From Limisphaerales bacterium (GTDB taxonomy: Bacteria > Verrucomicrobiota > Verrucomicrobiia > Limisphaerales > UBA11358), in contig JANYCI010000117.1 in NCBI GenBank assembly GCA_025360325.1, positions 1 through 40,492 on the forward strand: a stretch of DNA of 40,492 nucleotides, given 5' to 3'. Within the stretch, counting starts at the first letter, position 1. The number at the start of each line of letters is the position of its first letter. The notes beneath the pieces were generated by a model that was given only the letters and a program-made list of their open reading frames with translations, did not search any database and was not told the DNA's origin. Positions 27,286 through 40,492 of the stretch are shown piece after piece. Position numbers and translations under genes: made by a program.

Positions 27286-28758
27286 TCAAGGCAGACGTAA
27301 CCGGTAAAAAGTCTGCGGCGAATTCGGATCCAGCGGATTCGTGAAGTTCACGCGGCCGCCCGGCCCGAACTGGTTGGTTGCAAGCATCGTCCAGTTCGTC
27401 GCGGCCAGCGCAAGATTGGTCGTTGCCAGCACGAGATAATCTTGCCCGGCCGTGCCGTTCGTGCCGGTGATGATCAGATCGCCGCCGGAAATTTGGATGC
27501 CACCAATCACCGGTGGCTGGCCCAATACGACCACAGCAAGACTGGCAGCATTCGTTCCCGAGGCTCCGCTCACGGAGAGCGTCACAAGGTTCGTGCCAGT
27601 AGAAGTAAACGTGTGCGTCAGGCTCGTCGCAGTTGTGTTGGTCGTGAAACCGTCGCCGAAATTCCAACTGCGGTTCGTGATGCTGCCAACCGAGGTGTCG
27701 GTGAAATTCACGGAAAGTGGCGAAGCGCCATTTGTCGCGCTGGCGGTGAAACTAGCGAGCAGCACCTGGAAGTTCGTCAGCACCACGCTGGTCGCCGTGG
27801 TCACGACGAGGAAGCTGCCGCCGGCATAGTTCGCCACCGGCACGCGATTGTTCAAGATGTTGGTGAAGGTGCCGCTCATGCCAGCGCCATCGGTGAGAAT
27901 CGTGAAACTGTTGTTTGCGGCACTGCTGACGCCCGGCAAATCCGAGGCGAGGTTCGTCGCATAAATCAGATTCGCCGTGGCGCGGTTCGTGTCCAGCAGC
28001 GTCCAGTAGAACAAGAGATTGCTCGCCGTGTTCGCCACGCCGTTGAATGTGAGCGCGAGGTGATACCATTGATTGCTCGCGATGACATCCGGCCCATTTG
28101 TGGGGATCGGCACCACCGCCGCCGTGGCCGTGCCGTTGATGAACTCGATGCGGACGAAATTTGTGTCGCCACCGCCGCCCGCGTAACCGACCGGCAGCAG
28201 GCGGAACTGGAACACGCGCGTGCCCGTGCCGTTCACATCGCAGTTCAAAACCTGACACGGCTGCGCGCGGACGAAGTTGGTGGGATTGAAATTGATTTGC
28301 AGCAGCGCCTCGAAGGTGAACGCGCCGTCCGTCCCGGCATAAGTGAACGGGCTGGCCGTGCCGACGTTGCCGGAACCGGCGGGCATCGCGATGGCGTTCG
28401 AGGTGGTGAGCGGGCCGAAGTTGAGCGCCTTCTTGAAATTCACCGCGTTGTTGGAAAGCCCCGCGCTGCCCACGTTCACGCCGCCGATGAGGAAGGCGAG
28501 GTTCGTGCCGCCCGCGATAGAATCCACGCACGGCGCGCTGGTCTCGTCAAAATGCCAGAGGTGAAGCGTGGCGGTGTCTGCGGTGTAGCTCTGAATGGCC
28601 GCCGACGCCACGCCCGCTCCCAGCAGAGTCAGCGCAAAAATACAGAAGCCGGAAGCCAGAAACCGGAGGGCGGAAAAACCAAATGTGCGGCGCGAATGAT
28701 TTGGCGGCCTGATGGACACAGGCAAGTTTACGACAATTTTTTGAAAAACGCCAAGCAA
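27286..28758 (-). CDS. LamG-like/PKD secreted protein with FYRL tail, chimeric with the giant gene
   Basis: 490 residues. The start is uncertain: TTG at 28758 or GTG at 28719. Both precede a signal peptide (FLASGFCIFALTLLGAGVASA). Residues about 60-260 are LamG/concanavalin-like (TATLHLWHFDETSAPCVDSI, AFTFEALLQINFNPTNF, NQWYHLALTFNGVANTASNL). The LamG fold stops early at YATNLASDLPGVSSAANNSF and runs directly into the last strands of a repeat block, then a PKD domain (RSWNFGDGFTTNTTATSLTH) and the second-type tail ending FYRLRLP. From VPVANYAGGSFLVVTTATSV to the end it is nearly identical to the giant protein, also at DNA level, so a deletion or recombination made this hybrid. It likely binds carbohydrate at the surface. 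The pseudopilin gene upstream ends 9 nt before it. Confidence 0.8.
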   Translation of the reverse strand: MLGVFQKIVVNLPVSIRPPNHSRRTFGFSALRFLASGFCIFALTLLGAGVASAAIQSYTADTATLHLWHFDETSAPCVDSIAGGTNLAFLIGGVNVGSAGLSNNAVNFKKALNFGPLTTSNAIAMPAGSGNVGTASPFTYAGTDGAFTFEALLQINFNPTNFVRAQPCQVLNCDVNGTGTRVFQFRLLPVGYAGGGGDTNFVRIEFINGTATAAVVPIPTNGPDVIASNQWYHLALTFNGVANTASNLLFYWTLLDTNRATANLIYATNLASDLPGVSSAANNSFTILTDGAGMSGTFTNILNNRVPVANYAGGSFLVVTTATSVVLTNFQVLLASFTASATNGASPLSVNFTDTSVGSITNRSWNFGDGFTTNTTATSLTHTFTSTGTNLVTLSVSGASGTNAASLAVVVLGQPPVIGGIQISGGDLIITGTNGTAGQDYLVLATTNLALAATNWTMLATNQFGPGGRVNFTNPLDPNSPQTFYRLRLP

Positions 28759-28767
28759 CGGCGATGA

Positions 28768-29538
28768 TTATTTGACGGTGTTGAGCTGGGCGGGATTCAA
28801 CGTGCCGAGGTCGTCCTGCCAGAAATAAATTTCCCGCGTGGCCGGGTTCCAACTGTGGATGAAAAACATTTTCTTGGCGCTGATCCATTGCGCGGAGCCG
28901 TCGCAGAAAACTTCATTGCCGCCGACGGGCAAACCGCTTTTATCTTTGTGCGCGGGCAGATTGGAGAAGCCGCTGGGCGAAGGATTGTTGGCGTTGTCAC
29001 CCCACTTGCCGTCGAATTTGCAGACGAAATCCGCCGCGATCATCCACGTCGGCTTGGCCGTCGCGAGCTTGATGGGGCTGCGCGAAGGAACGGTGGTGAT
29101 GTTGTTCGCCCAAGTCGGGATGCCGCCGAAGTAAGCGTAGCCGAGCGTCCATTGGTTGTTAGCGGTGTTCAAATTAGCGAGGCCGGGACGATTCGGGCAG
29201 GACCAAGTGTTGGCGCTCCCGTTCGTGTTGACCACCAAACCTGCCGCCGCCCACACGGCGATGTTGGTGTTCTCCAAAAGAATCGGATGATTCGGCGTGG
29301 TGCCAAAACCGCCGGTGGCTCCAGCCACGGGAAGCAAATCAATGTTGTCGCCCGCCGCAATCTGGCAGGCGATGCCAACCTGCCGTAAATTATTCACACA
29401 AGCGATGCGCTTGGCGCGTTCCTTCGCGCTCGCCAGCGCCGGCAGCAGCATCGCCGCGAGAATGGCGATGATGGCAATCACGACGAGCAGTTCAATCAGC
29501 GTGAAGGCCGGGCTTCTTTTCAATTTCAGAATTTTCAT
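28768..29538 (-). CDS. Prepilin-type N-terminal cleavage/methylation protein (pseudopilin-like)
   Basis: 256 residues from the ATG at 29538 ([20 protein letters not shown]). The TTG at 29604 would add 22 residues before a leader that is already normal and is not preferred. A short basic leader ends in Ala rather than the usual Gly before FTLIE, which may affect prepilin peptidase cleavage. The hydrophobic helix and [24 protein letters not shown] match the pseudopilin at 15580. The C-terminal domain carries [20 protein letters not shown], the DG motif of this family. It directly precedes the LamG/PKD gene (9 nt). A perfect 11-bp inverted repeat lies in its leader at 29558-29590. Confidence 0.88.
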
Positions 29539-29557
29539 CTCAATTTTGGAAATGGCG

Positions 29558-29590
29558 CGGGGTGAAAGCGAACCAGCCACTTTCACCCCG
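29558..29590 (-). terminator. Perfect 11-bp hairpin between the truncated repeat gene and the pseudopilin
   Basis: The arms 29558-29568 (CGGGGTGAAAG) and 29580-29590 are perfect inverted complements around an 11-nt loop. It starts 24 bp downstream of the repeat gene stop on the minus strand. No T tract follows on either strand, so it may be an atypical terminator, an RNA-processing or stability hairpin, or an operator. Confidence 0.45.
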
Positions 29591-29614
29591 GCCAGGGATT
29601 TCAATCCAGCCGGC

Positions 29615-30196
29615 TCACGGATAAACGATGCGATAGAAGACTGCGCCGTTGGCTGGGTTGATTGTGTTCGTCACCGAAGTGACGCTGGCCGAGTTGGACA
29701 CGTCCACCCAGTTGCTGCCGAGGCCGCCGCTCAAGGAATTTGTCTGCGCCTGCAAACGCCAGCCGAGATGGTCAGCGGGCCAGCTCAATTCCAGGTTGCC
29801 GCCGTTCACCTTCGTCGTGATGTTCGTCGGATTCGTGGCGACCGTGACGGCCACCAGCAAACTGCCCGAACCAGTGATGTAAGGCGCACCGGTGGTGCTG
29901 TCATACACGCCCGGAGCTTGCGTGACACCGTTCAGGATCAAGGCTCCCACGCGATTCGTGACGCCGGTGAAATCCAACTGCAACATCGCGCTGCTCGCGA
30001 TAGATACGGTCGAGTTCGTGGCCAGCGAGGCGGTGGCAAGTTCAAGTGTGCCACCATTGACGGTCGTGTTGCCGGTGTAAGTGTTCGTGCCGGTGAAAAT
30101 CTGCGTGCCGGAACTCATGACAAGCGCGATGTTGCCGACGACATTGCCGCTGAAGGAATAATTGCCCGCGCCCAGGTCGAGCGTGAGCGTCTTCAC
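29615..30196 (-). pseudogene. 3' remnant of a beta-strand-repeat protein gene, cut at the 30.2-kb junction
   Basis: The frame encodes a typical repeat (SSGTQIFTGTNTYTGNTTVN followed by GGTLELATASL) and a complete first-type tail (LELSWPADHLGWRLQAQTN ... [14 protein letters not shown]). There is no signal peptide. The only nearby start is a GTG at 30196. Upstream the frame runs a few codons into sequence that encodes VirB4 on the other strand and stops at 30242-30244. Related proteins in this window have 700-2800 residues, so most of the gene is missing. It is a remnant or an assembly-cut gene rather than a working 193-residue protein. Confidence 0.75.
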
Positions 30197-30215
30197 CGTG
30201 GCGCGCGTCCTGCCG

Positions 30216-32426
30216 ATGACCGACCTCGACCATTTCCGGCATTACAAACAATTTCTCAACCCTTCGCTCAGCGACCGCTTTGATTTCAATCCGGCAGAAA
30301 GTTTTTCGCCCGAGCTTTCGATTCAGGACAATTGCTGGCACAGCGAAGGCAATGGCCAGTCCGATTTTGGGTTCTTCCTCGACGGCCATTATCACAGCAT
30401 CATCGTCCTCACCCGCTGGCCGCGCACGACCTATCCCGGCATCATCCAGCGCCTCACCAACCTTCGGCTGCTTGATTACACGATCACGGTCAACGTGGAT
30501 CCCCTGCCCATCTCTCGCGAGATAACCAAGGAGGAAAAAGAACATGACCGCGTGGCGGGCGACTATGCCAGCGAGAAGAAAATTTCCCTGCTAACCGTGA
30601 TGGAGAAAAAACAGAAAAAAATCCATGCGCTGATGCAGGGCCAGACGATTCCGTTCCACGCCATGTTCACCATCCGCGTTTGGGACAAGACCCGCGATGG
30701 CCTCAACGCGAAAACCGGCGCGATCAAGAACGCCATCAATTCGATGAACGCGGCGCAATACTTCGAGAGCAATCTGCCGAGCACATCGCGGAATTTATTT
30801 TTCCAAACGTGGCCGGGCTGGACGTGGGGACGCTACGAACATCGCAAGCTCTACGCCGAGCATCGTTTCCTTGCCGATATGCTGCCGGTGTCCAGCACGT
30901 TCACCGGCCACTTGGCAACTGCCGAGGCAATCTATGATGGCCCGCAGGATAACCTCGTCGGCATCGAAACATTTTCCGGTTCGGTGGACAATAAATCGCC
31001 GCAGCACGCGGTGTTGCTCGGCATGAGTGGGGCGGGCAAATCCGTGACGGTTTGCGACCTCCTTTCACAGACCGAGGGCTATTTTGGTTATACCGTCATC
31101 ATCGAGGAGGGCTTGTCCTACGGCATTTACACCGCGACCGTCGAACCCGGCGCTCGGCCGATCATCATCCATCCCGATGGCGACCTTACCATCAATTATC
31201 TCGACACAAAAGGTCTGCCGCTTACGCCCGATCATCTTTCCGCCGCGACCGCGCTTGTCGCACGGATGATTGGCACGAGTTCGCAGGAGGATAAACAAAT
31301 GCTCCGGCAGGCGCAGATCGCCAAATACCTGAACCTACTTTACGAGGATGCGTTTCAGGACTGGCAAAAGAAACGCCACGACCAATTGCTCGACATCGCC
31401 CGGCACGCGATGGCGCTGCAAAAATTTCGGGCGGAGAAAATGCCGCCGGGGGCAACCACGCTGGAGACATTTGCCGATTTCCGCGACTGGCGTGCGGCTC
31501 ATGCCGACGAGGCGCAGAATTATTTGCAACAATTCGTCGAGGCAGATGCTCTGAAATTTCTGAAGGATCCGCGCACGAGCAAGGAAGTCCGCAATCTCGC
31601 TTTCGCCCATTTCACGCCGGAGGAATTCCCGACTCACCGGATGCTTCAGGAGTTGATGATGCTCGACCCGATGGGCGGCGAACGCGACCAGATCATGGAA
31701 ATCGCCACGCTCATCTTGCCGTGGTGTCGCGACGGCAATTACGGCTGCCTGTTCGATGGCACAAGCAATCTATCTCTCACCGGCAAGATTGCTCACTTCG
31801 AGTTGGGTTACATCCCGGAGTCGGCGAAGGAATTGAAAGCCGCCGCCGGGTTCCTCATCACCAACCACGCGCGCAAGCACATCATGACGCTGCCGCGCGC
31901 CATTCGGAAACGGAACATCTACGAAGAGGTTGCCCGCTTCCTCGACATCCCCGGCGGTCAAGAGATCGTCCAGGAATCCTATGCCCAGCTTCGGAAGTTC
32001 AATTGCTGGAACATTTCCATCGTTCAGCAATACGCGCGCTTCAAACAGTCGCGCATCCGCTCCGCCGTGTTCGGCAACAGCCGTCAGTTTTTTATCATGC
32101 GCCAGAACGATCGCGCTGACCTTGAGGACATGGGCAAGGACATCGCGCTGCCGGAAGTGACGCAGCACGCGATCATGAATTATCCCCTGCCCGACCATCA
32201 AACCGGCCAGAAGTTTTCGCCGTTCACTTATCTGCACACCGACGCGACCCGCAATCTTTGCGGCACGGTTCACAACGTCGCGTCGCCGGAGATGCTCTAT
32301 TGCAGTTCGTCCAGCGGCGAACACTTCGACAAACGCGCCCGCGAACTTCGCCAATGTCCCAGCGTCATCGAGGGCATCATTCTCAACGCCAATCGTCCGA
32401 CCGATCCAAAATCTGACGCCAAATAG
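30216..32426 (+). CDS. virB4: VirB4/TraC-like conjugation ATPase, 5' truncated
   Basis: 736 residues from the ATG at 30216. This family powers substrate transfer and pilus assembly at the inner-membrane face of type IV secretion systems. Walker A is GMSGAGKSV at residues 269-277. The Walker B position reads NIYEEVARFL, with Glu570-Glu571 in place of the usual Asp-Glu. Downstream ISIVQQYARFKQSRIRSAVF and RQFFIMRQNDRADLEDMG fit the C-terminal motor domain. The N-terminal part (SDFGFFLDGHYHSIIVLTRW, LRLLDYTITVNVDPLP) fits the VirB4/TraC-specific domain. In VirB4 and TraC, Walker A usually lies beyond residue 400, so some 150-200 residues appear missing. The gene starts right at the junction with the truncated repeat gene. 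The 54 bp before 30216 in the same frame are antisense to that gene. It may be inactive if the truncation is real. Confidence 0.85.
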   Translation: MTDLDHFRHYKQFLNPSLSDRFDFNPAESFSPELSIQDNCWHSEGNGQSDFGFFLDGHYHSIIVLTRWPRTTYPGIIQRLTNLRLLDYTITVNVDPLPISREITKEEKEHDRVAGDYASEKKISLLTVMEKKQKKIHALMQGQTIPFHAMFTIRVWDKTRDGLNAKTGAIKNAINSMNAAQYFESNLPSTSRNLFFQTWPGWTWGRYEHRKLYAEHRFLADMLPVSSTFTGHLATAEAIYDGPQDNLVGIETFSGSVDNKSPQHAVLLGMSGAGKSVTVCDLLSQTEGYFGYTVIIEEGLSYGIYTATVEPGARPIIIHPDGDLTINYLDTKGLPLTPDHLSAATALVARMIGTSSQEDKQMLRQAQIAKYLNLLYEDAFQDWQKKRHDQLLDIARHAMALQKFRAEKMPPGATTLETFADFRDWRAAHADEAQNYLQQFVEADALKFLKDPRTSKEVRNLAFAHFTPEEFPTHRMLQELMMLDPMGGERDQIMEIATLILPWCRDGNYGCLFDGTSNLSLTGKIAHFELGYIPESAKELKAAAGFLITNHARKHIMTLPRAIRKRNIYEEVARFLDIPGGQEIVQESYAQLRKFNCWNISIVQQYARFKQSRIRSAVFGNSRQFFIMRQNDRADLEDMGKDIALPEVTQHAIMNYPLPDHQTGQKFSPFTYLHTDATRNLCGTVHNVASPEMLYCSSSSGEHFDKRARELRQCPSVIEGIILNANRPTDPKSDAK

Positions 32427-32437
32427 AATTCACAACC

Positions 32438-32863
32438 ATGAAAACCAAACTCATTTTCCTCTCGCTAAAAATGCTCCTTTGCATCGCCGTTGCCAGTTTG
32501 TTTGCCGGGTGTTCGACCATGCGCCCGATTGATGACGCCGCGCTCGGGGCGGGCGGCGCGTATCTCGTCCACGAACTTTCCCACGGCAACGCCGCCGCCA
32601 CCGTGGCTGGAGCTGCGGGCGGCGTGCTCATCAGCGAGGGACTTCATTACGCCGCCAAAAGCCAGGCCGACAAGGCATTCACTAGCGGTTACGACAAGGG
32701 CAAGAGCGATGCCGTCAAACAGCAATACTGGCTTTACGTCTCGATGCAACATCAGCGCAACGAGACTGGTAGCGTCCGCCTTTACCCCGTGCAATTGCCG
32801 GAACAACGCATCGACGGGGTAACGTTCCAACCATCCACCAAATACCTCCGCATCGAGGAATAG
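32438..32863 (+). CDS. Small lipoprotein, VirB7-like position
   Basis: 141 residues. The N terminus MKTKLIFLSLKMLLCIAVAS ends in a lipobox, LFAGC, with Cys25 as the lipidated residue. A glycine/alanine-rich stretch follows (DDAALGAGGAYLVHE, AAATVAGAAGGVLISEGLHY), possibly a glycine zipper, then a charged C-terminal half. It lies 11 bp after VirB4 and before VirB5. It likely takes the role of the VirB7/TrbH-type lipoprotein that stabilises the outer-membrane core, though sequence similarity to those is not visible. Confidence 0.75.
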   Translation: MKTKLIFLSLKMLLCIAVASLFAGCSTMRPIDDAALGAGGAYLVHELSHGNAAATVAGAAGGVLISEGLHYAAKSQADKAFTSGYDKGKSDAVKQQYWLYVSMQHQRNETGSVRLYPVQLPEQRIDGVTFQPSTKYLRIEE

Positions 32864-32885
32864 CAGGCGAAGCCTGCACGCAACC

Positions 32886-32896
32886 AAGAAAGGAAA
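32886..32896 (+). promoter_or_regulatory. Strong Shine-Dalgarno before virB5
   Basis: AAGAAAGGAAA with AGGA 8 nt before the ATG at 32903. This is one of the few clear ribosome binding sites in the window and fixes the start of the VirB5-like protein. Confidence 0.7.
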
Positions 32897-32902
32897 CACA
32901 CC

Positions 32903-33703
32903 ATGAAAAAGTTAATCGCCCTCGCCCTCGTCACGGTCAGCATCAGTTTGACGGCTCGCGCCCAGATGATTGTTTATGACCTGACCAGCAACATTCAGGA
33001 AATCGTGTCGCAAGCGGCCAACATTGCGAAATACATCCAGATGATCGAGAACCAGGTGCAGCAAATCGAGACGCTCACCGACCAGCTCGATGAGTTCAAA
33101 CATTACGAAGACCTGTTTGGTAACCCGCAAAGTGTTGCGCTGTCCACCGCTTCATCGCTTCTCGATGACCTCAAGAAAACCGAGGTCGGCCAGACGCTCA
33201 CCACGCTCGAAGGCTCCATCAAAACCAGTGATGCCATGCTCTACAATGCGAATGGATTGTTCCAAAGCATCGGCACAACGTTCACCACGCCGGACGGACA
33301 GATCGTCACGCGGCCAGACGCACCGTTCAAACCCATCGCCGCAATTCAGAAAACCACGGACAACTATTTGTCCGTCTCCACCGATGCCGCCGCCCGGCGC
33401 AAGGCATTGAAAGACCAGATCGCCTCGACCACCGAGCAACTCAAGTCCGCCAGCACCGATGCCGAGGTTCAAAAACTGCAAGGCGTCCTCACGGGCTTGT
33501 CCGCTGCGCTCAACAACACCGACTACGAAATCAATCAGGCTACCTCATCCGCGCTGGTCCAGGACATCGCCAACCGCAATGACGCGCAGCGGCAGGTCGA
33601 GGCGCAGCAGCAACAGCAACACGCCGAGTTCACCGAGGCGATTCAGAAATACGGACAGACGTTCCGGCTGATGAATGCGCCGACAGCGTTTCCGGCTCCC
33701 TAA
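32903..33703 (+). CDS. virB5: VirB5/TrbJ-like conjugation protein
   Basis: 266 residues. Sec signal peptide MKKLIALALVTVSISLTARA, then VYDLTSNIQEIVSQAANIAK and KYIQMIENQVQQIETLTDQL, the helical N-terminal signature of P-type TrbJ/VirB5 proteins. Most of the protein is predicted helix or coiled coil, with a Gln-rich stretch (QRQVEAQQQQQHAEF) near residues 230-245. Members of this family are periplasmic and can sit at the pilus tip or help pilus assembly. It is the third gene of the type IV secretion operon, between the small lipoprotein and VirB6. Confidence 0.85.
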   Translation: MKKLIALALVTVSISLTARAQMIVYDLTSNIQEIVSQAANIAKYIQMIENQVQQIETLTDQLDEFKHYEDLFGNPQSVALSTASSLLDDLKKTEVGQTLTTLEGSIKTSDAMLYNANGLFQSIGTTFTTPDGQIVTRPDAPFKPIAAIQKTTDNYLSVSTDAAARRKALKDQIASTTEQLKSASTDAEVQKLQGVLTGLSAALNNTDYEINQATSSALVQDIANRNDAQRQVEAQQQQQHAEFTEAIQKYGQTFRLMNAPTAFPAP

Positions 33704-33739
33704 CTAACCACCGGCACACCCCTCAATCGTCCCGACGTT

Positions 33740-34810
33740 ATGGCCTCATTTGAAAGTCTGTTTCCAACGTTCCTGCTCAAATGCGTCGAGCTGCACGAAC
33801 TCCTTCGCATCGTGGCTTTCATGTTGTTCATCGTCGGGACGATTACCTTTGTCGTCCACGGCTTCAGCGGCAAGACGCTGCTGTTGCACATGGTTCGCTT
33901 GTTCATCCTGACGGCGCTGCTCGTGTTCCTGCCGCAATGGGGCAACCAGATTCAATCGCTCATGCAAACTTCAATTCTCAACGGCCTCGGCGTTGACCCG
34001 TCAAATGTTCAGGACCAATACAACCAATTGCTCGTCGTCAAACGCAATACCGCCAGCGGCAGCCATTCCTGGTGGGACATTCTCGGCGACATCCAGAGTT
34101 TTACCGTCGAGACGCTCATCTCCGGCATTCTCTGGCTCGTCGGCGAGTTCGCATCGCTGCTCCTGTTCTGGGCCTACATCATCCAGAAATTTATTCTGTT
34201 CTCTAGTTACGCACTCTCGCCCCTGCTCATCGGTCTCATGGCCATCCGACCGCTGCGTTCCACCGGCAGCCGCTATCTGATGAATATTTTCGGCGTGTTG
34301 CTTTGGCCGCTTGGCTGGGCCGTCGCCGCCCTCATCACTCAGGGCATTCTTGATTTCATGACCGACCCGTCCTTCAAGTTCATTGATCCAACCGCCACCC
34401 TGTATTCCCTTCAAGCCACCGTTGGCGTCGTGGTCGTCGCGTTCTGGATTGTGTTCAGCACGATTGCCGCGCCGCTCGTCATCCAAAAAGTTCTCTCCTC
34501 CGGGGTGTTGGCGGGCGGTCAGTTGCTGGCCGGGGCGGCGAGCAGCGCCATTCAAACCGCAGCCACCACCGCCGGTGCTGCCGCCGCTGCCGCCACGACC
34601 GGCGTTCCGTTTGCTAGTGTCGGTGCCGCCGGTTTGGCCGCCGTGATGAGCACCATGTCATCCGCCGGTGGCCACGGCAGTGCCGGCGCGATCATCATCG
34701 CCGGTTCGGGTTTGCCGCCGCGCTCCGCCCGTGGCCGTCCCGGTGATGACATCTCCGGCGACAAATCCGTTCGCGACCTCATCGCCAAAACCAAAGGCAA
34801 CCACTTCTGA
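33740..34810 (+). CDS. virB6: VirB6/TrbL-like polytopic inner-membrane protein
   Basis: 356 residues with about six or seven hydrophobic segments: LRIVAFMLFIVGTITFVVHG (about 20-40), MVRLFILTALLVFLP (50-67), TLISGILWLVGEFASLLLFW (125-150), FILFSSYALSPLLIGLMAI (153-172), FGVLLWPLGWAVAALIT (185-205) and VGVVVVAFWIVFSTIAAPLV (228-250). An Ala/Gly/Thr-rich linker and a short charged, probably cytoplasmic C terminus (KSVRDLIAKTKGNHF) follow. This topology and the position after VirB5 fit VirB6/TrbL, the inner-membrane channel component. The downstream VirB8-like gene starts 5 nt after the stop. Confidence 0.85.
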   Translation: MASFESLFPTFLLKCVELHELLRIVAFMLFIVGTITFVVHGFSGKTLLLHMVRLFILTALLVFLPQWGNQIQSLMQTSILNGLGVDPSNVQDQYNQLLVVKRNTASGSHSWWDILGDIQSFTVETLISGILWLVGEFASLLLFWAYIIQKFILFSSYALSPLLIGLMAIRPLRSTGSRYLMNIFGVLLWPLGWAVAALITQGILDFMTDPSFKFIDPTATLYSLQATVGVVVVAFWIVFSTIAAPLVIQKVLSSGVLAGGQLLAGAASSAIQTAATTAGAAAAAATTGVPFASVGAAGLAAVMSTMSSAGGHGSAGAIIIAGSGLPPRSARGRPGDDISGDKSVRDLIAKTKGNHF

Positions 34811-34815
34811 ATTTT

Positions 34816-35484
34816 ATGGAAACCACCGAACTTGATCCTCGCCACACCCCAACCGGCCAAGGCCCCACACCCTGGCTTGCCCACAAGCGTTTCGACCCGA
34901 CCCAACTTTTCGCGCAGCGCGACCGCCTGCCGTGGTTTTGGTTTTTTACGGCGGTCGCCATGACCCTGGTTGCCGCGCTCGACCGCTATCATCTCATCAG
35001 CGAGTTCAAACAGCGTGAGCGCGTCGTCATCATTGACCCGGCGCAGACTTATTACATAAGCCCGCTGTTGCAATTTCAGGAGGCGAAGGATTTGCACGTC
35101 CAGCAGGCCACGCTGGCAACCACCGCCCTGCTCGAACGCAGCCCAAAGGATTTTGACCACGCTGATTTGCTGAAACAAATGTTTCTGAAGCCCGCGTTTC
35201 AGAAAGCCCAGGACCAGCACACGCGCGAAACGGTCGAATTTCGCTCCAAGCAACTTCATCAAAAACCAGAGGTTGCTCGCGTGGACATTCTGGCCACGCG
35301 GGAGAATGAAGTGCTCGCCACCGTCACCGGCCAGTTGATCCGTTCCGGCATTTTTCAGGAAAAGGTTTTCACCGAGGCGTTCACTTTCAAGTTGAGCCTC
35401 CGTCTCGTCCGCAACCCAAACATGGCCGTCAATGGTCGCTTCCCGACCGCCGTGGCCGACTACAAATATGAAATCAATAATTAG
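34816..35484 (+). CDS. virB8: VirB8/TraE-like bitopic inner-membrane protein
   Basis: 222 residues. A short cytoplasmic N terminus (about 37 residues), one transmembrane helix (LPWFWFFTAVAMTLVAALDR), then a periplasmic domain of about 160 residues consistent with the NTF2-like fold of VirB8/TrbF/TraE. Landmarks are VVIIDPAQTYYISPLLQFQE and the C-terminal strand FTFKLSLRLVRNPNMAVNGR. Position between VirB6 and VirB9 supports the call. The following gene starts inside its 3' end (17-nt overlap), suggesting coupled translation. It could equally be called TrbF-like. Confidence 0.75.
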   Translation: METTELDPRHTPTGQGPTPWLAHKRFDPTQLFAQRDRLPWFWFFTAVAMTLVAALDRYHLISEFKQRERVVIIDPAQTYYISPLLQFQEAKDLHVQQATLATTALLERSPKDFDHADLLKQMFLKPAFQKAQDQHTRETVEFRSKQLHQKPEVARVDILATRENEVLATVTGQLIRSGIFQEKVFTEAFTFKLSLRLVRNPNMAVNGRFPTAVADYKYEINN

Positions 35485-36370
35485 CACCCTCCTGTTGTCC
35501 GCCGCCATCGCGTTCGCTGAATCGCCCGAAGCCATCCAGCACGTCACGCTCGACGAAACGGCGGTCGTCACTGTGCCGGTCGCCACGAACCGCGTGACTA
35601 CCATCAGCTTTCCCAGCTCCATCGCCGCGATTGATGCAGCAGGCGTGACCGCTGACGGCAAGACGTCAGGCCAATTTCAACTTGCGCACACGAAAGGTTC
35701 AACGTTCCTCTCCGTCCGCGCGCTTGCGCGCAAGGCCGCGACGAATCTGAACATCCGGTGGAACAAACGCACTTACGTTTTTGAGCTAGTGGAAAGTGAT
35801 ACGCCGGTGTTGTCCCTCAATCTGGATGATCCTGCTACATCAGAACCAGTTTTACCTGCGCCGTCCGTGTCACCGACGCAATTGCTCGCCTTGCTCGACA
35901 AGGCCAAGGCGTTTCCGTTGCTGAAAAAACAACACGCCGATGCCGTTGCCCATGCCGAGGTCAGGACTTTTGGCAGCTCCCCGCAAATCACCGATTTCAA
36001 TGATTACGAAATTCGTATCAATGAGGTGTTCCGATTCAATACCGAGGACACGCTGGTTTTTCATGTCACTCTTAAAAACAAATCGGAAAAGGAAATCCGT
36101 TATCTGCCGGAAAGTTTCTCGGCCCGGATTGGCAACCGGCTCTATTACCAGTCCATCAGCGATGCGTCCGGCATCCTGCCGCCGAAATCGGCGAGCATAG
36201 TTTACTTCGCCATCACCGGCACACCGGACGGCGGGCGCAACGAACTGTCGTTGAAAAATGAATTCAGCATTTTGGTGACGCGGCTTTCTCCGCCACCGCC
36301 GCCCGTCGTCGTCACCAACCGTGTCGTCGTCCCCGTTAAACCGATTCGCTCCCCCAGAAATCAGCTATGA
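35468..36370 (+). CDS. VirB9/TraK-like periplasmic core protein
   Basis: 300 residues from the ATG at 35468. The longer in-frame start at 35432 would remove the signal peptide MKSIISTLLLSAAIAFA. The N-terminal domain (VTLDETAVVTVPVATNRVTT, FPSSIAAIDAAGV, FLSVRALARKAATNLNIRW) resembles the beta-rich domain of TraK/VirB9/TrbG. The C-terminal domain (EVFRFNTEDTLVFHVTLKN ... SFSARIGNRLYYQ) is a second beta-sandwich. A Pro-rich tail follows (LSPPPPPVVV). In type IV secretion cores this protein forms the outer-membrane ring with VirB7 and VirB10. The start overlaps the VirB8 gene and the stop overlaps the VirB10 start (ATGA). Confidence 0.75.
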   Translation: MKSIISTLLLSAAIAFAESPEAIQHVTLDETAVVTVPVATNRVTTISFPSSIAAIDAAGVTADGKTSGQFQLAHTKGSTFLSVRALARKAATNLNIRWNKRTYVFELVESDTPVLSLNLDDPATSEPVLPAPSVSPTQLLALLDKAKAFPLLKKQHADAVAHAEVRTFGSSPQITDFNDYEIRINEVFRFNTEDTLVFHVTLKNKSEKEIRYLPESFSARIGNRLYYQSISDASGILPPKSASIVYFAITGTPDGGRNELSLKNEFSILVTRLSPPPPPVVVTNRVVVPVKPIRSPRNQL

Positions 36371-37443
36371 AACCTCGCGACTTTCTCAACTTCTTCAAAA
36401 CCAAAAGCGGCAAGCTTGTCTTGTTCTGCGCGCTCTTCGCCGGTGGCCTTGTTTTGTTCGGCGTGTTCCGTGAACGGCATCGCGATCCCGAAGACATCGC
36501 CGTTACCGCCGCCCGCACCAGCCTCACCGACAAGGCGCAGGTGGTGCAGTCAGTCGAATTGCCGATGCAGCCGTTCCATCCGCCGACGCCAAAGGCCGAG
36601 ACGTTGCCGGTTGTGAAATCGAACGACGCACCGAAAGTCATCGTTGATCCGCGCGCTCAAGAAGCCAAAACGCCGACGCTTGCGCCTATCAGTTTATTTC
36701 CTGATTCGGCCAACGAAAACGCCGCCAAGAAAACGGTGAGCACGATTTACGCGCCGTTTGGCCGCCTCATTTCGTGCGAGACGATCATCACCGTGGACTC
36801 GTCCTCCATTCAGACACCCATCATCGGCCTCGTCACCGAAAACATTTATCACGCAGGCAAGCTGGTGATTCCCGCTGGCACAGAGGTTCACGGCACAGCC
36901 CAGACCGACCGCCATCGCGAGCGCATCGCCAGCGGCAATAACTGGACGCTCGTCTGGCAAGGCGGTGAGGAGTTGCACTTGAAAGCCATCGCCCTCGACC
37001 GCGAATTTTCCGGCAACCAGGAAGGCTGGGCCATTACCGATGGCAGCGCCGGGCTGCGCGGGCGCATCATCAAGTCCGACAACCTCGCGGAGCTAAAATT
37101 GTTTGCCGCGACATTTCTTTCCGGGGCAGCGGGTGCATTGACGGAAAAACAACAAACGGTTTTCGGTTCGGCCACCAGCCCCACCTTGAATAACGCGCCT
37201 TTCGCTGGCGCACAAAAAGTGGTTGATACCTACGCCCAGCAAATCTACGACGCCATCCAGCGGGATGGTTTTTATGTCCGCGTCGCCAGCGGCAAACAGT
37301 TTTATCTCTACGTCCTGCAAACGATTGACCGTGCCGACGCAGAAATCGGCGGCTCGGAAAAACCATTCGCCGAGGATGCCAGCGTCGCACCTACACCCAT
37401 TCCCCGCAATTTTTCTTCAACCTCAACCGCCATCAAACCATGA
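36367..37443 (+). CDS. virB10: VirB10/TrbI-like core protein
   Basis: 358 residues. A short cytoplasmic N terminus, one transmembrane helix (LVLFCALFAGGLVLFGVF, residues 18-35), a Pro/Lys-rich periplasmic linker (about 60-120), then the beta-barrel domain: TIYAPFGRLISCETIITVDS, TPIIGLVTENIYHAGKLVIP and AGTEVHGTAQTDRHRERI, the conserved VirB10 pattern. It spans from inner to outer membrane and links ATPase energy to channel opening. At 358 residues it is close to typical VirB10. ATGA overlaps join it to VirB9 upstream and to the lipoprotein downstream. Confidence 0.85.
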   Translation: MKPRDFLNFFKTKSGKLVLFCALFAGGLVLFGVFRERHRDPEDIAVTAARTSLTDKAQVVQSVELPMQPFHPPTPKAETLPVVKSNDAPKVIVDPRAQEAKTPTLAPISLFPDSANENAAKKTVSTIYAPFGRLISCETIITVDSSSIQTPIIGLVTENIYHAGKLVIPAGTEVHGTAQTDRHRERIASGNNWTLVWQGGEELHLKAIALDREFSGNQEGWAITDGSAGLRGRIIKSDNLAELKLFAATFLSGAAGALTEKQQTVFGSATSPTLNNAPFAGAQKVVDTYAQQIYDAIQRDGFYVRVASGKQFYLYVLQTIDRADAEIGGSEKPFAEDASVAPTPIPRNFSSTSTAIKP

Positions 37444-38018
37444 AATATCTCGCCCTCATTCCGCTCGTGTTCGTTGCTTCGTGCGCCTCGCGCTCGCAAT
37501 TTTCCGTTCGTCCCACGCCATCGGCAACAGTCACTCCGGTTGAATCCGTGCGTTACGCGGAGGTGGTTCGCGCTTACCACATCGGGCGGCAAGTTGATCC
37601 GAACCATTCCGAATTGATGTCCGAAGGGCATCCGGTTTATCGCGTCGAAGTTTCTCCGCGATGGAATCTTCACCCAGGATCGCCGAACACCATCAATTCG
37701 TTGAACGCGCCCACTGATGTCGCCTACACGCCGTCGCCCACCAACGATGCCGTCATCGCCGAGCTGAACCATCAGCGCGAAACGACGGCACTCGTCATGC
37801 AGCAGGCCGCCCGGCTCGGACAATCTTATCAGCAGTTGAATCAGTTGATTGGCGAGATGAAGACCGTCGCCCAAAACAACGCCACCTTGAACGCCCGCCT
37901 CACCGCCACCGAGCAACGGGTCAGCGATTTTGAAAAACAATTGGTGAAAGATTCAGCATCGTCCACCAATGACTTTTCCCACTTTTCACCGGAATCAGAT
38001 GATTCCCCCAAACCATGA
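37440..38018 (+). CDS. Lipoprotein with coiled coil, end of type IV secretion operon
   Basis: 192 residues. MKYLALIPLVFVASC is a lipoprotein signal with lipobox VASC (Cys15). The middle part contains VRYAEVVRAYHIGRQVDPNH and YRVEVSPRWNLHPG. Residues about 100-175 form a probable coiled coil (AELNHQRETTALVMQQAARL, ARLTATEQRVSDFEKQL). The N-terminal portion recalls TraV/TrbK-type accessory lipoproteins only by position and length; no family is recognised. The start overlaps the VirB10 stop (ATGA), which places it in the same operon. Confidence 0.7.
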   Translation: MKYLALIPLVFVASCASRSQFSVRPTPSATVTPVESVRYAEVVRAYHIGRQVDPNHSELMSEGHPVYRVEVSPRWNLHPGSPNTINSLNAPTDVAYTPSPTNDAVIAELNHQRETTALVMQQAARLGQSYQQLNQLIGEMKTVAQNNATLNARLTATEQRVSDFEKQLVKDSASSTNDFSHFSPESDDSPKP

Positions 38019-38108
38019 AATGAATTTGCCGGAGCGGGACAAACTAACCGCCTCGTTCCGGTGAACACGGCAAATGCCGCGTAAACCAAAACAACAAAAA
38101 TAAATCGT

Positions 38109-38516
38109 ATGACAAAACCAAGAACATCCGCGCCATCAAGCGCCAACGGCAATGCCGCCCCCGGAGAACAGCCCACCTTCCGTAGCAACCCGGAGGTGGA
38201 TGCCAAGATTGATGCCTACATCAAAGAGAACCCAAAGTATTGGACCTACGTTCAAGCCATGCCGCGTGAACGGCTGGAGCGCAGCGTCGTTCTCAATGAG
38301 GTGCGCGAACTGGACCGGCAACAACGCATCCGTGAAGGCATCTTGAAACAGATCAACCGCAGCCCCGAACTGAAACAGGCTTACGATCTCCTCGTCAAAG
38401 ACCTGCCGGAAGACCAGAAAGAATCGGTCATCGCCCAGATCGGTCGCACCACCCGCCGTGCCGTCGCCCGCCTCCAAGGCCAGCAGCAGCAGAAGCGCGA
38501 AGGTGTCGGAGTTTGA
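38109..38516 (+). CDS. Small soluble protein of unknown function, last gene of the transfer operon
   Basis: 135 residues, no signal peptide or membrane segment. Charged and mostly helical: EVDAKIDAYIKENPKYWTYV, VLNEVRELDRQQRIREGILK and a basic, Gln-rich C terminus (TTRRAVARLQGQQQQKREG). It could be a DNA-binding or relaxosome accessory protein, but no family is recognised. The 90-bp gap before it contains an imperfect 10-bp hairpin (38029-38038 with 38052-38061, two G-T pairs) and no clear ribosome binding site. A terminator follows 13 bp after the stop. Confidence 0.65.
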   Translation: MTKPRTSAPSSANGNAAPGEQPTFRSNPEVDAKIDAYIKENPKYWTYVQAMPRERLERSVVLNEVRELDRQQRIREGILKQINRSPELKQAYDLLVKDLPEDQKESVIAQIGRTTRRAVARLQGQQQQKREGVGV

Positions 38517-39018: not shown

Positions 39019-39762
39019 ATGGCTTTAACTATTCGCCACAATTCAATCAAAACGCTCCAAGGGGCCATCCCTCGCGGAACGCCATTTGACAGCCACCAGC
39101 TTCAGGAACTGGGGGTTTCCTCGGCACTGTCGCATCACCATCTTAAATCGGGCTGGCTGGAACGCTTGGGCCGTGGCGTCTTCATGTTCCCAAAAGACAT
39201 CTTGCGCCGGGAAGACTCATTGAAGTTTTTGGCCGCCTCCGGTGAAGGTTTCCATGTCGGCGGCAAGACCGCATTAGCATGGCGAGGAATACGCCATAAT
39301 CTTCCCACCCGCGAACCTCTGTCACTTTGGGGTGAAAGCCGAGTCGTCTTGCCGCCGTGGTTCACTGACCGCTTTCCCGCCCGTTATACGAAGAGGAATT
39401 TGTTTTCGCCCAAGTTACCTAAAGGCTATGGCCTGCAACCTTTGCCCGAAACACCGCATGGCGTGTTGGTCTCCGAACCGGAAAGAGCCTTGCTGGAAAT
39501 GTTGAGCGAGGTCGGAGTTTATCAAGGCGTCGAGGAAGCGCGCAACATCATGGAGGGAGTCCGTTCCTTGCGAACTGACACGCTGGCAACTTTGCTGAAA
39601 CGGTGTGAGCGCGTGAAGGTGCGGCTGTTGTGCATCAGCTGGGCCGAGGAACTGAATCTGCCGTGGGCTGCCGCCGCGCGGAAAGCCGCCGGTAAGTCGC
39701 AAGATCAAAGCCGGTGGACCGCTCGGCTCAAAGACGGAACCGTCCTGAACATCAAACCATGA
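39019..39762 (+). CDS. abiEi: AbiEi-family antitoxin (type IV toxin-antitoxin)
   Basis: 247 residues. The N-terminal winged helix region (FDSHQLQELGVSSALSHHHL ... GWLERLGRGVFMFPKD) is typical of AbiEi antitoxins, which bind their own promoter and counter the toxin. The central part (SGEGFHVGGKTALAWRGIRH and LVSEPERALLEMLSEVG) matches the AbiEi C-terminal domain. The stop overlaps the toxin start by ATGA (39759-39762), the usual antitoxin-first, coupled order. The family was first known as a phage abortive-infection system and is common on mobile elements. It appears intact. Confidence 0.88.
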   Translation: MALTIRHNSIKTLQGAIPRGTPFDSHQLQELGVSSALSHHHLKSGWLERLGRGVFMFPKDILRREDSLKFLAASGEGFHVGGKTALAWRGIRHNLPTREPLSLWGESRVVLPPWFTDRFPARYTKRNLFSPKLPKGYGLQPLPETPHGVLVSEPERALLEMLSEVGVYQGVEEARNIMEGVRSLRTDTLATLLKRCERVKVRLLCISWAEELNLPWAAAARKAAGKSQDQSRWTARLKDGTVLNIKP

Positions 39763-40391
39763 CGGACAAAATCTACGTTGATACCGTCCGCCTGTTGCTG
39801 GAATGCGTGCCGGTGATTTTTGAGACACCACACTTTGCGATGAAGGGCGGCACGGCCATCAATCTGTTTGTTCAGGAAATGCCGCGTCTGTCCGTGGACA
39901 TTGACGTGGTTTACACCGACCACACCACCCCGCGCGTGAAAGCGTTGAAGGCCATCGCGGACGGTCTCAATCAAACTCGCATCCAACTCGCCAAATTCGG
40001 GTTGCAAGCCCAAGTAGCCGCCACGAATAAAGGCGACGAAATCAAGCTGTTCATCCAGCGCGGAAAAGTTCAGGTGAAGGTGGAGGTTAATCATGTCTTC
40101 CGGGGAACGGTTCTGCCGGTCGAGACGCGTGCATTGAGCGCAGCGACACAACGCTTGTTCACCACTGATTTGTCCGCGCCCATTCTTGCTCCCGCCGAAC
40201 TTTACGGCAGCAAGCTGGTCGCCGCGATGGATCGGCAGCATCCGCGCGACATCTATGATGTTCACGGTCTATATGCGCAGGGCGGGTTGACGCCCGATAT
40301 CATCGAGTGCTTTGTTTGCTATCTTGCCGGTCATAACCGGCCGGTGCATGAAGCATTTGTGTCCTGCATGAATGATCAGAGTTTGGCGTAG
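39759..40391 (+). CDS. abiEii: AbiEii-family nucleotidyltransferase toxin, probably 3' truncated
   Basis: 210 residues from the ATG at 39759. It has the nucleotidyltransferase motifs of AbiEii: KGGTAINL (residues 29-36), then VDIDVVY with Asp47 and Asp49 as metal ligands, a later QVKVEVNHVF strand, and RDIYDVHGL near 166. AbiEii toxins of this type are usually near 300 residues. Here the family-like sequence runs through IECFVCYLAGHNRPVHE (to about 40348), then becomes AFVSCMNDQSLA and stops within a segment that reads as a transposase end on the other strand. An insertion sequence has therefore probably removed the C-terminal helical domain. The catalytic core remains, so activity is uncertain. 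Confidence 0.8.
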   Translation: MTDKIYVDTVRLLLECVPVIFETPHFAMKGGTAINLFVQEMPRLSVDIDVVYTDHTTPRVKALKAIADGLNQTRIQLAKFGLQAQVAATNKGDEIKLFIQRGKVQVKVEVNHVFRGTVLPVETRALSAATQRLFTTDLSAPILAPAELYGSKLVAAMDRQHPRDIYDVHGLYAQGGLTPDIIECFVCYLAGHNRPVHEAFVSCMNDQSLA

Positions 40392-40492
40392 AGGGTGCGT
40401 AGGTGGAGCAGGGCTTGCGGCAGCGGGGTCGGCCGATGCCAGTGGACGCGCAGCCAGCGGATCAGTTTGAACGTCGCCTGCGTGAAGCGTTG
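40376..40492 (-). CDS. C-terminal end of a probable transposase (partial)
   Basis: The minus-strand frame from the window edge to a TGA at 40376-40378 encodes 38 residues, with landmarks TFKLIRWLRVHWHRPTP and PLPQALLHLRTLYAKL. The tone resembles the C terminus of DDE-type transposases such as IS4-like ones, but the piece is short. It overlaps the abnormal 3' end of abiEii, which supports an insertion sequence whose left end lies near 40348-40375. No terminal inverted repeat can be tested because the other end is outside the window. Confidence 0.45.
   Translation of the reverse strand, partial: QRFTQATFKLIRWLRVHWHRPTPLPQALLHLRTLYAKL

Follow-up and report, generated by a model that had tools for sequence, protein, structure and literature searches.

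Among described systems, relics of ICEs that were degraded by deletion and retain truncated T4SS operons come closest to the locus presented here: like it, they combine a truncated virB4 and the loss of the upstream pilin gene and virB3 with a downstream operon that can still be read. Unlike in such relics, the truncation at this locus appears very recent, with no frameshift and a dN/dS as in whole genes, and the partner gene at the break encodes a secreted repeat protein. The ATPase itself resembles the VirB4/TraC proteins (TIGR00929, TIGR02746) of the type found in Limisphaerales, with up to 94% amino acid identity and a Walker A motif, from which it differs in the absence of its first 170–172 residues; its lineage falls under both curated cut-offs. 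Chimeric contigs from short-read metagenomes (PMC11261854) likewise switch abruptly from one gene to an unrelated one within a fragmented draft bin, whereas here about 2–5 bp are common to both sides at the join and the bin contains no competing contig. The stretch of DNA analyzed (hereafter “the window”) is a complete contig of 40,492 bp (G000:C62) from a draft, Limisphaerales-like metagenome-assembled genome (MAG) of 4.03 Mb in 372 contigs, estimated to be 88.6% complete and 4.9% contaminated. Overall, we consider a recent short-homology deletion between two divergent genes, leaving behind a remnant of a conjugation (T4SS) operon, to be the most probable explanation, at somewhat better than even odds. 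The locus reflects an ordinary kind of genome damage and not a new system.

The initial annotation had described a head-to-head junction at 30197–30216, at which two genes are each cut off at the 5′ end, with both sides meeting within about 20 bp. This proved accurate, with the true junction lying inside that interval at 30200–30204 (no strand assigned), where a minus-strand repeat gene and a plus-strand virB4, both without 5′ ends, meet head to head, and the homologies in fact meet within 2 bp. Specifically, repeat-gene homology on the left stops at 30202 and VirB4 homology on the right starts at 30201, leaving a strict overlap of 2 bp. At the DNA level, across 49 genomes of the genus, homology to the left side extends to 30202–30204 at most and homology to the right side starts at 30194–30202, while none of the 49 spans the junction. 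Left-side homologues read ...GTGGC and then GCTGCTGTTGG or CCCGCTG across the join, and virB4 homologues read ...GGCGCG and then CGCATCCTGCC; comparison of the flanks of both families thus suggests a possible microhomology of at most about 5 bp, GGCGC. No N bases occur in the contig, junction included, the junction sequence is absent from IMG/VR, and junction-flanking sequence was not found on any other contig of the bin. The left end of the window overlaps no other contig. An element boundary at the join was rejected, as there are no direct or inverted repeats ≥12 bp around it, no tRNA gene was found, and the junction sequence occurs just once in the window. The evidence rejects a clean element insertion, which the initial annotation had already considered unlikely. 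A deletion mediated by an insertion sequence (IS) was rejected as well, since there is no IS at the junction and the IS of the bin sits at the far right end of the contig. Composition was uninformative regarding a foreign origin of one side: the tetranucleotide distance between left and right (0.18–0.25) does not exceed the spread found when other bin segments are compared, and GC3 values are 0.74 and 0.72 for the two sides.

On the left, the interrupted gene (29615–30202, minus strand) retains the C-terminal 195 codons and the stop of a secreted protein with passenger-associated transport repeats (PATR), recognized through a match to Pfam PF12951 above the 27-bit cut-off (31.2 bits, E = 2.2e-7). 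Full-length homologues from three congeneric genomes occupy frames of 1367, 1406, and 1388 codons; the first codon of the remnant (30202–30200) aligns with their residues 1173, 1212, and 1192, respectively, and the alignments, at 64–75% amino acid identity, continue through to the end. About 1,170 of approximately 1,365 residues are thus missing from the N-terminus, a loss far larger than that of VirB4 and one whose size had not been estimated before. Residues 1–1150 of the repeat protein had no ortholog-quality match in the bin. The repeat gene is followed on the same minus strand by genes for a pseudopilin-like protein (28768–29604, Pfam N_methyl) and a PKD protein (27286–28758, Pfam PKD), and this order is the same in the relative G007 and in the window. 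In G007 and another relative, G066, the repeat gene is preceded by a response regulator (84% identical between the two) located beside a probable sensor gene. Since the best match to this regulator in the bin is only 51% identical, we consider this neighbor to be missing there as well. The left side, which encodes large secreted PATR, PKD, and beta-helix proteins along with pseudopilin-like genes, had been labeled a polysaccharide locus meeting a conjugation operon; the second half of that description held, while the first is too loose.

On the right, an open virB4 frame of 754 codons spans 30162–32426, and homology to VirB4 covers 30201–32426 on the plus strand, i.e., 741 residues from about codon 171 of the family to the end. 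In relatives holding this region, homology starts at residues 6–15 of the open reading frame and nearly always at residue 14 (codon 30201–30203, “ARVLPMTDLDHF”), from which amino acid identity to homologues reaches 94% over the 741 residues. The 13 in-frame codons before it (30162–30200) are antisense of the repeat gene rather than VirB4. Where relatives offer enough upstream sequence, the frame runs about 168–172 residues further, unbroken, to the family start MFERxPNGFF... and its variants, and two other virB4 copies in the bin likewise continue upstream to this start. Whole homologues measure approximately 905–913 residues, of which the first 170–172 are absent here, in line with the 150–200 previously estimated, and the N-terminal domain is incomplete. 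The translation contains the Walker A motif GMSGAGKS of a P-loop ATPase, and most of the nearest named relatives of this VirB4 come from MAGs assigned to Verrucomicrobia subdivision 3 / Limisphaerales. Matches to TIGR02746 (TraC, F-type; 87.6 bits against a curated cut-off of 567, E = 4.7e-25) and TIGR00929 (VirB4_CagE; 51.8 bits against 643, E = 3.9e-14) both remained below threshold. Because an intact paralogue from the bin (L010, 570 residues available) also scores low on these models, the low scores reflect divergence of the lineage and not truncation alone. A search of solved structures with this VirB4 returned no match.

Downstream, the rest of the conjugation operon (32438–38516, plus strand; Pfam T4SS, CagX, and TrbI matches) is intact, and its gene order is the same in the relatives L047, L049, and L051 and in C137 and C208 of the bin. 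After virB4 come genes for a small lipoprotein-like protein, a VirB5-like protein, a membrane protein at the VirB6 position, a protein at the VirB8 position (both named from position only), a VirB9-like protein (CagX), and VirB10/TrbI, followed by two small open reading frames; the VirB5-, VirB9-, and VirB10-like genes identify the setting as a virB operon. Upstream of their virB4 copies, contigs C36 and C194 of the bin carry virB2 (TrbC/VirB2 pilin), a gene at the virB3 position, and two small genes, all of which are absent here, so that the T4SS is not the complete one of an intact ICE. No relaxase, coupling protein, integrase, or att site was seen in the part scanned, and the contig ends at 40492. 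A working conjugation channel requires the pilin and VirB3 as well as a VirB4 with its N-terminus, and, judging from its gene content, the operon should have no secretion channel of its own in cis. Directly downstream of the operon lies an AbiEi/AbiEii type IV toxin–antitoxin pair (39019–40391; Pfam AbiEi_3 and AbiEii), whose AbiEii toxin gene appears to be truncated near its 3′ end by an IS at 40353–40492 (transposase reading frame in C364, minus strand, ending ...LHLRTLYAKL).

We also evaluated the state of the remaining virB4 and of related copies. Its median dN/dS is 0.051, compared to 0.048–0.057 in full-length relatives, indicating no relaxation, and it contains no frameshift. Pseudogene decay therefore could not serve as a clock for the event, and normal purifying selection on a gene without frameshifts suggests that the join is either very recent or artefactual. 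Damaged virB4 copies also occur in related genomes. In L093 (JAHCLO010000040.1), a headless virB4 beginning at residue 540 is joined, at an internal contig position, to another gene, the truncated end of what its sequence suggests is a metal-efflux gene. Two virB4 copies of a single MAG, L098 and L103 (JAJYHY010000378.1 and JAJYHY010000435.1), share an internal deletion of approximately residues 568–762 (567 joined to 763) while being 94.7% identical to each other; its presence in two divergent copies suggests that this deletion is real and inherited there, and makes it hard to attribute to an assembly error. A further virB4 of the same MAG (L099) has lost approximately residues 75–344, and L097 and L099 represent virB4 fragments. 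The bin itself contains at least four related yet divergent T4SS operon copies (64–86% DNA identity; C36, C194, C137, C208, and C115, corresponding to L009, L010, L147, L148, and L149), which stem from a mixture of strains or else from a single genome with several elements. In one of these (C208; L148/L169), the last gene of the conjugation cluster encodes a 1,713-aa SNF2/methyltransferase-like protein and is followed by alpha-L-fucosidase and alpha-L-rhamnosidase genes. As this related cluster directly adjoins sugar-degradation genes, the neighborhood of the conjugation cluster in the window is not odd in itself.

Taken together, the observations all fit the set of explanations proposed initially, in which the join is either a chimera of the assembly or the end point of a deletion or recombination, and we favor deletion over chimera. 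The two genes point apart with their 5′ ends facing the junction, which is exactly the picture that one deletion between them would give. The damaged virB4 copies in L093, L097, L098, L099, and L103, along with the C208 operon lying next to sugar-degradation genes, the 2-bp spacing of the two homology limits, and the lack of N bases at the join, also count for a deletion, while the lack of relaxation or frameshift in virB4 counts against it unless the event was very recent. Nevertheless, there is a substantial, if less than even, chance that library preparation or assembly fused two separate stretches, derived from one population or in part from a strain binned with it, and that both genes are whole in the organism. 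The absence of decay in virB4 would be expected in this case, and the several divergent operon copies in the bin may tangle the assembly graph. The right end of the contig runs 140–141 bp into an IS copy common to the ends of C91 and C101 and the interior of C364, and is probably a de Bruijn branch point at k of about 141; this would suggest a MEGAHIT-like assembler, for which one benchmark reported approximately 22 chimeric contigs per genome (PMC11261854). The draft nature of the MAG and the lack of a second genome with the junction similarly count against a deletion. However, with no more than about 5 bp in common, far below any assembly k-mer, the two halves can have been joined only if at least some reads cross the junction, and, given how such assemblers work, a well-covered true continuation would be expected to branch and break the contig at this point. 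No true continuation of either half was found in the bin, where the only two N-terminal virB4 copies belong to other operons (80–82% DNA identity). The lack of both missing halves and of competing flank contigs counts for a deletion, as assembly and binning of the true continuations should have left such pieces in the bin, yet the lack of the halves represents weak evidence because the bin is incomplete.

The remaining alternatives are far less probable. Another form of recombination, be it the end point of an inversion or translocation or a deletion within an element present in several copies, would place the reciprocal join elsewhere and would find material for rearrangement in the related T4SS operons and the multi-copy IS of the bin, but the bin contains no reciprocal piece (the 5′ part of the repeat gene beside a virB4 N-terminus) and the junction lacks any repeat or IS, making this very unlikely. 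Least credible of all is a naturally short VirB4 starting at the ATG at 30215 (MTDLDHF) with nothing missing: while the frame is open and the ATG present, the frame of relatives runs about 168–172 residues upstream to the family start. The alignment with full-length homologues proposed in the initial annotation, whose first matching residue is the residue 14 noted above, included none that begins at MTDLDHF, and a natural start there is refuted in the sample of homologues examined. Finally, the deletion could be real and fixed with the headless VirB4 and its operon still in use, for example through complementation in trans by the other T4SS operons of the bin; such complementation is conceivable, but we regard continued use as highly improbable.

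Under the favored deletion, a conjugative element with a plus-strand VirB-type operon would once have been located to the right of the minus-strand secreted-repeat gene, the two pointing apart. A single recent deletion with end points inside both genes, and 2–5 bp of common sequence at the join, would then have removed about 3.5 kb of the 5′ part of the repeat gene together with the genes preceding it (in relatives, the response regulator and the probable sensor gene), and, on the element side, the left end, virB2, virB3, the two small genes, and the first 170–172 codons of virB4. The conjugation operon that remained would be expected to be unable to build a secretion channel in cis, and thus presumably inactive. 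For annotation purposes, this VirB4 needs to be marked as truncated at its N-terminus, and the join should be taken neither for the edge of an integrated element nor for an indication of the sites into which such elements insert. If real, this deletion would represent one more case of conjugation clusters in these Verrucomicrobia decaying by deletion.
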